Assembly: GCA_001314685.1 (NCBI GenBank)
Contig: LJNT01000148.1
Span: forward strand, 1-45,646
DNA from: Rhodobacteraceae bacterium HLUCCA09
GTDB lineage: Bacteria; Pseudomonadota; Alphaproteobacteria; Rhodobacterales; Rhodobacteraceae
DNA: 45,646 nucleotides
Reading direction: 5' to 3'
Below are positions 14,493 to 37,749 of the stretch, piece by piece. The notes beneath the pieces are model-generated. The model ran no database searches, was not told the origin of the DNA, and saw only the letters and a list, made by a program, of their open reading frames with translations. The position numbers and the translations under genes were made by a program. Every line of letters starts with the position of its first letter. Positions within the stretch are counted from its first letter, which is position 1.

Positions 14493-14531
14493 ACAAAGAA
14501 AAAGCCGCCGCGCCCGAAGGGCTGCGGCGGC
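14493..14531 (-). terminator. Intrinsic terminator for the minus-strand small ORF 14655..14771
   Basis: Reverse strand GCCGCCGCaGCCCttcGGGCGCGGCGGC followed by TTTTTCTTT. Confidence 0.75.
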
Positions 14532-14654
14532 AAGTGGCGAATCTGCGTCTCCGGAGAACGGTCCGCGCGGGGACATGCGCGAACGACAGGCAGGTGCAGC
14601 GCCGCGGTTGGGGGCGCGGCGCGGCCGGACGACAGACCGCAGGCAGAGACCCGG

Positions 14655-14771
14655 TCAGACGAAGAGAGGCAGGTGCAGCCCGGCGTAGAGCGCCACCATC
14701 AGGGCAACCGCGCCGAGCGCGTCGGCCGCCATGCGGCCCGAAAGGGCGATCCGCTTGACCTCGTTGAGCAT
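14655..14771 (-). CDS. 38-aa putative SOS-regulated small inner-membrane protein (not in ORF track)
   Basis: Reverse strand: MLNEVKRIALSGRMAADALGAVALMVALYAGLHLPLFV*; RBS GAGGGAG upstream; one hydrophobic segment; SOS-type box 57 nt upstream; terminator downstream. Confidence 0.72.
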   Translation of the reverse strand: MLNEVKRIALSGRMAADALGAVALMVALYAGLHLPLFV

Positions 14772-14827
14772 TACCGTCTCCCTCGTCTAAGTTGCCCATT
14801 TGTTCTCACACAAGGGGCGCCCTGTAA

Positions 14828-14842
14828 AGAACTTTTTAAGAA
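14828..14842 (-). promoter_or_regulatory. Putative LexA/SOS box GTTC-TTAAAAA-GTTC upstream of the 38-aa ORF
   Basis: GAACTTTTTAAGAAC on + strand; abuts a TTTACA -35-like hexamer on the minus strand; a third GAAC at 14849..14852. Confidence 0.7.
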
Positions 14843-14880
14843 CATTCGTGAACGAAGTGCGTCTTTGGGAGGCTTGACCG

Positions 14881-16971
14881 CTAACCTACTGCGATCATTC
14901 GGATCGCCCGATCCTGGTCCAGCAGCCACAGCAGCACCCGCGCCGCGCGGCCGCGATCGCTCTCCAGCGTCGGGTCGTCGGCGAGCAGGCGGCGCGCGTC
15001 GGACTGCGCCATCGCCATCAGCGCGGTCTGCCGCTCGAGGTCGCCGATCCGGAACCGCGGCAGCCCGCTCTGGGCCGTTCCGATCAGGTCGCCCGCACCG
15101 CGCAGGGCGAGATCCTCCTCCGCGATGCGAAAGCCGTCTTCGGTTTCTCTCAGTGTTTCCAGTCTCCTGCGGGCCGTCTCACCCAACGGTCCACGATACA
15201 TAAGCAGGCACGTCGACCGGGCCGCGCCGCGCCCGACCCGGCCCCGCAGCTGGTGGAGCTGTGCCAGCCCGAACGATTCGGCGCGTTCGATCACCATGAT
15301 CGAGGCATTGGGCACGTTGACCCCCACTTCGATCACCGTGGTCGCCACAAGGAGCGGCACGTCGCCCGCCACGAAGCGCGCCATCGCGGCGTCCTTCTCG
15401 GCGAGCGGCATCTGCCCGTGCACCAGCGCCACCCGCCCCTCGCCCAGCCGCATGCGCAGGTGGCGAAACCGCTCCTCCGCCGCGATAAGGTCGGTCGCCT
15501 CGCTCTCCTCGACCAGCGGGCAAACCCAATAGGCTTGTTTTCCCTCGGCAATTGCCTTGCGCAGGTGCTCCACCACCTCGTCGAGCCGACCGGTGGAGAC
15601 GAGGCGCGTGACGACAGGCGTGCGCCCCGGCGGCTTTTCGTCGAGCACCGAGAGATCGAGGTCGCCATACTGCGAGAGCGCCAGCGACCTGGGGATCGGC
15701 GTCGCCGTCATCACCAGCACGTCGACCGCCTCGCCCTTGGCGCCCAGTTCCATCCGCTGCGCGACGCCGAAGCGGTGCTGCTCGTCGATAATGGCCAGCC
15801 GCAGGTCGCGGAACGCCACGTCGGCCTGGAACACCGCGTGGGTGCCGATCAGGATCTGGATATCGCCTGACTCCAGCGCCGTGAGCTTGGCGGCACGCTC
15901 CGGCCCCTTGTCGCGCCCGGTCAGCACCTCGGCGACGATCCCGGCAGCTTCGATCAGGGGCCGGATCGAGTCGAGGTGCTGGCGGGCGAGGATCTCGGTC
16001 GGGGCCATCAGCACCGCCTGCCCCCCCGCCTCGGCCGCGGCGCACATCGCCAGCACGGCGACCAGCGTCTTGCCCGCGCCCACGTCGCCCTGCAGCAGCC
16101 GCATCATCCGCTTGCCTGCGGCCATGTCGGCGGTGATCTCCGCCACCGCCCGCTCTTGTGCGTCGGTGGGCGAAAACTCAAGTGATCCCAGAACCTTGGC
16201 GGCGAGGCGGCCGTCACCCACCGTCGGTCGGCCGGAGCCGAGGCGCATCCCCGCGCGGGCCAGCGCAAGCGTCAACTGGTGGGCGAAAAACTCATCGTAG
16301 GCAAGACGTTGGCGGGCCGGGGCGTGGGGCGCCATCTCTTCCAATCCCAGCGGCGCGTGGGCGGTTTCGAGGGCCGGGCGCCAGCGCGGCCAGCCCTCGC
16401 GCGCCCGCAGCGGCTCGTCGATCCATTCCTCGAGTTCGGGCGCGCGCTCCAGCGCCGCCTGTGCGGCCTTGGCCATCACCTTCTGCGAAACCCCTGCAGT
16501 CAGGGGATAAACCGGCTCGAACGGGGGGATCTCGCCGGCCTCCTCGGGGGCCAGGACGTGGTCGGGATGGGCCATCTGAGCCACCCCGTCGAACAGCTCC
16601 ACCTTGCCCGAGACGACACGGCGCTGTCCGGTGGGCAAGAGGCGGCCGAGATAGCGGGGATCGGCATTGAAATAAACGAGCTGGAAGGTGGTCTGCGCGT
16701 CCTCCACCTCGACCCGGTAAGGTCCGTTCCGGCGCGAGGGCGGCCGGTGGCGGCCGACGACCACCTCGACGGTGGCGACGGTGGGCGGCTGAACGGCCCG
16801 GATCGAGGCGACGTGTCGGCGGTCGATGCCGGAATGGGGCAGCGTGAACAGCAGGTCGCGGGGCCGGGTGATGTCGATCGCCGCGAGCCGCTCGGCGAGG
16901 CGCGGGCCGATCCCCTGCAGCGTCTCGATCTCCGCGAAGAGCGGGTAGAGGACGGGGGGCCGCGTGCTCAC
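14881..16971 (-). CDS. recG: ATP-dependent DNA helicase RecG
   Basis: QGIGPRLAERLAAIDI...RLLQGDVGAGKTLVAVLAM...IIDEQHRFGVAQR...MTATPIPRSLALSQYGDLDLSVLDEKPPGR...QLRGRVGRG. Confidence 0.97.
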   Translation of the reverse strand: MSTRPPVLYPLFAEIETLQGIGPRLAERLAAIDITRPRDLLFTLPHSGIDRRHVASIRAVQPPTVATVEVVVGRHRPPSRRNGPYRVEVEDAQTTFQLVYFNADPRYLGRLLPTGQRRVVSGKVELFDGVAQMAHPDHVLAPEEAGEIPPFEPVYPLTAGVSQKVMAKAAQAALERAPELEEWIDEPLRAREGWPRWRPALETAHAPLGLEEMAPHAPARQRLAYDEFFAHQLTLALARAGMRLGSGRPTVGDGRLAAKVLGSLEFSPTDAQERAVAEITADMAAGKRMMRLLQGDVGAGKTLVAVLAMCAAAEAGGQAVLMAPTEILARQHLDSIRPLIEAAGIVAEVLTGRDKGPERAAKLTALESGDIQILIGTHAVFQADVAFRDLRLAIIDEQHRFGVAQRMELGAKGEAVDVLVMTATPIPRSLALSQYGDLDLSVLDEKPPGRTPVVTRLVSTGRLDEVVEHLRKAIAEGKQAYWVCPLVEESEATDLIAAEERFRHLRMRLGEGRVALVHGQMPLAEKDAAMARFVAGDVPLLVATTVIEVGVNVPNASIMVIERAESFGLAQLHQLRGRVGRGAARSTCLLMYRGPLGETARRRLETLRETEDGFRIAEEDLALRGAGDLIGTAQSGLPRFRIGDLERQTALMAMAQSDARRLLADDPTLESDRGRAARVLLWLLDQDRAIRMIAVG

Positions 16972-37734: not shown

Positions 37735-37749
37735 GAACAGAAAATGAAC
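37735..37749 (-). promoter_or_regulatory. Putative LexA/SOS box GTTC-ATTTTCT-GTTC upstream of uvrA
   Basis: GAACAGAAAATGAAC on + strand, 68 nt upstream of the uvrA start. Confidence 0.8.

Follow-up and report, generated by a model that had tools for sequence, protein, structure and literature searches.

In Rhodobacteraceae bacterium HLUCCA09, a short gene lying behind recG is proposed to encode a LexA-repressed inner-membrane microprotein of the Rhodobacteraceae that acts as a SidA-like brake on cell division and whose mRNA ends in a regulatory 3' UTR; we hold this explanation as a whole with about even confidence. Judged from the anatomy of the locus, the gene product most likely inhibits division during the SOS response in the manner of SidA, and an sRNA from the 3' UTR possibly assists it.

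The features of the locus are collected in Table 1, in coordinates of the window, that is, the whole stretch of 45,646 nucleotides that was analysed (contig LJNT01000148.1). The earlier note on this DNA, made from the letters alone, had described a LexA box, which is present one base away from the position given (14843..14829 instead of 14842..14828). The TTTACA abutting the box, the GAGGGAG ribosome-binding site, the translation of the 38-aa ORF and the GC-rich hairpin are all found on the minus strand as described. The second site of the operator pair, the third GTTC and the structured 3' UTR were absent from that description.

Table 1. Features of the microprotein locus and its neighbours in the window.
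Feature	Position	Strand	Basis or remark
Core LexA box GTTCTTAAAAAGTTC (GTTC-N7-GTTC)	14843..14829	minus	exact pattern match
Upstream LexA-type operator array GTTC-N6-GTTC-N7-GTTC	14829..14853	minus	sequence and conservation across homologous loci
Third GTTC of the upstream array	14853..14850	minus	
-35-like hexamer TTTACA, adjoining the operator	14828..14823	minus	predicted promoter role
Predicted extended -10 region TGAGAACAAA	14799..14808	minus	conservation; predicted promoter role
Second, inverted LexA-type operator GAACAAATGGGCAAC (GAAC-N7-CAAC)	14805..14791	minus	over the -10/start region
Ribosome-binding site GAGGGAG	14784..14778	minus	
ATG ORF, predicted 38-aa single-TM microprotein MLNEVKRIALSGRMAADALGAVALMVALYAGLHLPLFV	14771..14655	minus	profile matches, dN/dS, predicted helices
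Structured 3' UTR	14531..14654	minus	motif enrichment, loop placement, stem tests, folding z
CTGCCTG motif of the 3' UTR	14646..14640	minus	
CTGTC motif of the 3' UTR	14635..14631	minus	
CTGCCTGTC motif of the 3' UTR	14593..14585	minus	
Intrinsic terminator, GC-rich hairpin and T-run TTTTTCTTT	14530..14495	minus	
recG, conserved upstream neighbour	14881..16971	minus	Pfam RecG domains
Second GTTC-N7-GTTC of the window, GTTCATTTTCTGTTC	37735..37749	minus	82 nt before the UvrA ATG

The box alone had been called weak evidence, on an estimate of about 0.6 copies per window, and shuffling agrees: 0.72 exact GTTC-N7-GTTC copies are expected per shuffled window and two are observed. ORFs of the 38-aa size class are, moreover, common within the window, and both points speak for a chance box in front of a chance ORF of no function. 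The probability of such a coincidence is nevertheless practically nil, as the ORF, the box, their spacing and their position are conserved across about 200 genera and dN/dS is about 0.18; family-wide conservation of the gene and its operators together with this ratio refutes it. Both copies in the window stand at SOS-type promoters, the other one preceding the gene for UvrA, which was identified from its sequence. The uvrA gene is a classical SOS gene, and the box before it is an internal positive control, at the level of sequence, for the operator pattern.

An exact GTTC-N7-GTTC lies within 150 bp upstream of the start codon in 110 of 111 homologous loci (here and below, counts of loci are not counts of independent events), which removes the doubt over a chance box. 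This conservation is not circular, since 80 of the 81 profile-found loci that were not used for building the profile also carry the box. An inverted site, GAAC-N7-[CG]AAC, is additionally present in 100 of the 111 loci, and the spacing between the two operators is 38 bp in 93 of them. The first operator adjoins the -35-like TTTACA and the second overlies the predicted -10/start, the promoter consensus over the 111 loci being GTTC-aCaaaT-GTTC-TyAAAAA-GTTC-TTTACa-(about 15 nt)-TGAGAACAAA-gg.g-CAAC, in which the TTTAC positions are 87-99% conserved and those of TGAGAACAAA mostly 86-97%. A terminator-like hairpin with a T-run is found in 107 of the 111 loci. A transcription unit of its own behind recG, under a LexA-type promoter, has strong in silico support, as first suggested in the earlier note.

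A regulator other than LexA is not favoured, because the same operator class occurs at recA and lexA, with GAAC-N7-GAAC upstream of both in 14 of 14 Rhodobacteraceae genomes, and at uvrA in the window. A LexA domain is encoded in the window's own genome (G000). LexA control of the microprotein gene is well supported at the sequence level, and we infer both LexA binding and induction by damage. At the recA operators (L047-L060), a single GTTC lies 22-33 bp upstream of GAAC-N7-GAAC in most of the 14 genomes, a layout that resembles the facing-site arrangement of the peptide promoter. Further AT-rich GTTC-N7-GTTC boxes, such as GTTCTCTTTATGTTC, occur at other loci (L002-L005, on contigs C11, C18 and C33 of the window's genome), where they precede ORFs on small contigs resembling a radical-SAM protein and a DNA methyltransferase; these ORFs are possibly further LexA-controlled genes or mobile elements.

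The promoter signature was also scanned in one genome per species across 85,462 species. Among the at least 80 matches listed, every record title points to the Rhodobacteraceae or to an unclassified alphaproteobacterium, recG is immediately upstream in 77, and the peptide accompanies the signature in 79, the one exception ending directly behind the promoter. The signature has no match in 2.9 million viral contigs, and this, together with the stable synteny behind recG, led us to reject a mobile or phage origin of the gene.

Searching with the single peptide gave matches in 58 of 249 genomes of the same family, and a profile built from 30 members gave matches in 217 of the 249 Rhodobacteraceae genomes (genera), with about 204 matches reaching E<=1e-5. 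For 25 of the 32 genomes that have no profile match, the sequence following recG was examined; about 13 of these 25 have, as judged by eye, a small TM-type ORF in place that keeps D/E-x-x-G or a close variant, in most cases with a LexA-type or half-degenerate box. Outside the family, the profile search of 338 genomes of the class returned two marginal matches only, and the box was found behind recG in none of 28 alphaproteobacterial genomes of other families; an extension of the gene to other alphaproteobacteria was rejected on these two results. The gene is therefore near-universal in, and apparently restricted to, the Rhodobacteraceae. The earlier note had proposed a check of conservation and synteny downstream of recG, and the ORF with its box proves to be family-wide with recG nearly always adjacent: among the first 30 loci, recG precedes the gene with few exceptions, and no other gene-neighbourhood link was found across the loci examined.

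Genomes in which the peptide is not detected are also more often without LexA. In counts that ignore shared ancestry, LexA is absent from 5 of 32 genomes without the peptide vs 5 of 217 with it (p=0.004), and, among high-quality genomes, from 3 of 27 without the peptide vs 1 of 189 with it (p=0.006). A few high-quality Rhodobacteraceae genomes (including G029, G060 and G167) have no detectable LexA DNA-binding domain, and most of them also lack the peptide; in G167, recG is present and LexA, the box behind recG and the peptide are all absent. Five sampled genomes keep the peptide without a detected LexA domain, four of them incomplete and one (G151) complete.

The ORF shows a dN/dS of 0.17 against a congener, with a median of 0.18 over 37 pairs, and the differences between orthologous ORFs are concentrated at third codon positions. 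An elevated dN/dS had been named beforehand as grounds for doubting the gene; the value of about 0.18 is one of purifying selection, and a real, conserved coding gene is strongly supported by these sequence comparisons. When 30 members were compared with Pfam and NCBIfam, each family that came up did so for a single member at most, and always weakly. In 193 distinct sequences, D17 is conserved at 99%, G20 at 98%, and L32 and P35 at 96% each, and the sixth aligned position is K or R in 88%. The net charge is +1.3 over the first 16 residues and K/R are absent from the last seven, so that an N-in/C-out topology is expected from the positive-inside rule, and it is this topology that we infer for the peptide. 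AlphaFold2 predicts helices at residues 2-10 and 13-37 with a mean pLDDT of 87. Hydropathy, charge and the helix model agree on the small single-TM protein described earlier, with a predicted membrane location. The near-invariant residues at both predicted membrane edges suggest a specific partner.

These residues bear on the question of what such a peptide would do. The main named rival is a LexA-controlled toxin of the TisB/DinQ type, which, by depolarising the membrane or compacting the nucleoid, could impose dormancy after damage and would be restrained by an RNA antitoxin. A small hydrophobic single-TM peptide under a tight LexA-type promoter would suit that role, and TisB and DinQ of E. 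coli are likewise LexA-controlled tiny single-TM peptides, DinQ having 27 aa and an antisense RNA, agrB (PMC3567139). TisB and DinQ are, however, type I toxins with antisense RNAs (PMC3567139). No counterpart of these RNAs was seen upstream of the operators here, though one may lie opposite the 3' UTR. The interval between recG and the operators holds no conserved element for a divergent antitoxin RNA, the 5' leader is short and poorly conserved, and membrane-edge residues kept nearly invariant throughout the family are more easily explained by a specific partner than by unspecific harm to the membrane. We consider a toxin distinctly unlikely, and the anatomy, as we read it, favours a protein partner and division inhibition over it.

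Many bacterial microproteins of about 40 aa regulate membrane complexes, and the possible targets of a short TM peptide in the membrane are numerous. The partner may be an inner-membrane protein outside the divisome, such as an FtsH-like protease, a respiratory complex, a transporter or the competence/gene-transfer machinery, whose activity the peptide would modulate under SOS conditions. For this unlikely alternative speaks the tie of LexA to gene-transfer-agent and competence genes in Rhodobacteraceae (PMC6473078); the sole gene-neighbourhood link, recG, speaks against it.

Behind the stop codon, the transcript continues into what is, by sequence comparison, a conserved, structured RNA element with strand-specific CUGCCUG/CUGUCCC loop repeats. 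Over the 220 nt that follow the stop codon, the 111 loci contain 134 copies of CTGCCTG vs 4.2 in shuffles, and 129 copies of CTGTCCC vs 4.3; their positions are mostly in the first 130 nt, and both are depleted on the antisense strand. Clusters of three or more motifs are present in 41 of 80 of these UTRs, whereas the rest of the 1.26 Mb of strand scanned has none, and this confinement to the 3' UTR does not support a general DNA signal. In 25 genomes, the two-motif pattern falls mostly at the recG locus, with scattered single matches about as frequent as those of the reversed control.

Folding agrees with the repeats. The mean unpaired probability is 0.72 for motif bases vs 0.39 for other bases, and the mean folding-energy z is -2.4 for the 3' UTRs vs -0.8 for recG coding sequence, the window's own copy having -2.14. 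As the MAFFT alignment is too loose for a covariance model, stems were assessed by a motif-anchored search with 3' flanks swapped between loci as the control. Stems of at least 5 bp close 47% of the CTGTCC motifs vs 19% with swapped flanks, and they vary in sequence (GCATC/GATGC, CATTGC/GCAATG and CGCGTC/GACGCG among many); the two ends of the UTR pair in a closing stem of 9 bp or more in 37.5% vs 11% in the swapped control. Typically, CUGCCUGC close to the stop codon comes first, followed by a hairpin with a CUGUCCCAA loop, a GACA-CUGCC-UGUC hairpin, a hairpin with a CUGCCUC loop, the closing stem and the terminator. A known RNA family was rejected, there being no Rfam match at gathering score: none in 10 loci, and only sub-threshold chance matches in the window. 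Some loci have few or no CUGYC motifs (for example L019, L028 and L029) with the ORF still present, which means that the RNA element is not shared by all loci.

Multi-loop sponge or anti-SD sRNAs, such as those of the CsrB type and the Rhodobacter CcsR type, use GGA or CCUCC motifs. The 3' UTR is like them in repeating a short motif in several hairpin loops and unlike them in that its motif is CUGCC/CUGUCC and is embedded in a coding mRNA. It is probably an RNA regulator, either a released sRNA or a binding platform. To our knowledge, no described LexA regulon combines a checkpoint protein and a regulatory RNA in one conserved transcript. We put forward tentatively, and with clearly less than even confidence, a family-wide dual-function SOS transcript, made up of a membrane checkpoint protein and a new multi-loop (CUGYC) regulatory RNA that would act on RNA or protein partners.

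A close precedent for the RNA is DinR of Klebsiella pneumoniae, an sRNA that comes from the 3' end of dinI, a LexA-controlled mRNA for a small protein, and that represses ftsZ (PMC10907235). The Rhodobacteraceae transcript likewise has, by sequence comparison, a conserved structured 3' end with a terminator of its own, and this RNA may act in the way of DinR or as a multi-loop sponge; DinR differs in pairing with ftsZ mRNA through a Klebsiella-specific region, whereas the RNA here is family-wide, multi-looped and built on repeated CUGYC (PMC10907235). By this comparison, the 3' UTR might be the main product, an SOS sRNA with the peptide secondary to it. Between congeners the 3' UTR is about 94% identical (counted from the alignment) and is conserved as strongly as the ORF, and its strand-specific loop motifs and control-tested stems would agree with such a priority. 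The clear purifying selection on the ORF and its survival in the loci poor in motifs stand against it, and we find a primarily RNA function very doubtful.

We return to the division inhibitor as the preferred reading, in which the choice of a division protein as target and the role given to the RNA are proposals of this analysis. In undamaged cells, LexA on two facing operators, one abutting the -35 and the other covering the -10/start, would shut the promoter, which damage would release through RecA-driven cleavage of LexA. The peptide would insert N-in/C-out, its short basic N-terminal helix staying in the cytosol and its single membrane helix starting with D-x-x-G and ending in L-H-L-P at the periplasmic face. 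It would then bind an inner-membrane division protein of the FtsW/FtsI/FtsN class and delay septation until repair is complete, as SidA does in Caulobacter, while the transcript would run on into the structured 3' UTR, whose CUGYC hairpin loops make it a probable RNA regulator.

The SOS proteins of Caulobacter crescentus include SidA, an inner-membrane protein of 29 aa that acts on FtsW (PMC4211646), and it is through sidA that lexA mutants of Caulobacter form filaments (PMC12700426). Compared by anatomy, both are very short, predicted or known single-TM inner-membrane proteins of alphaproteobacteria whose genes have a LexA promoter with GTTC-N7-GTTC (PMC4211646, PMC12700426). The Rhodobacteraceae peptide differs in its length of about 40 aa and in having D-x-x-G and L-H-L-P, two operators, a structured 3' UTR and a restriction to one family. 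YneA of Bacillus and SosA of Staphylococcus are reported to be LexA/SOS-induced, membrane-associated division inhibitors that share no common ancestry; they are longer proteins and come from Gram-positive bacteria (PMC13396833, PMC6851548). The main text of an in silico LexA study of Dinoroseobacter shibae contains neither recG nor a division inhibitor (PMC6473078). In the open-access literature we found no Rhodobacteraceae SOS peptide or LexA-controlled sRNA, which may be described under another name.

The Rhodobacteraceae (Rhodobacter, Paracoccus, Roseobacter, Ruegeria and others) comprise model organisms and bacteria of major ecological weight, and the literature searched yielded no SOS division inhibitor described for this family. 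The microprotein gene is a concrete candidate for one, present in most genera with a tightly conserved operator pair and without a Pfam or NCBIfam model. With it, R. sphaeroides, R. capsulatus, Paracoccus or Dinoroseobacter can serve for direct tests of the family's DNA-damage checkpoint.
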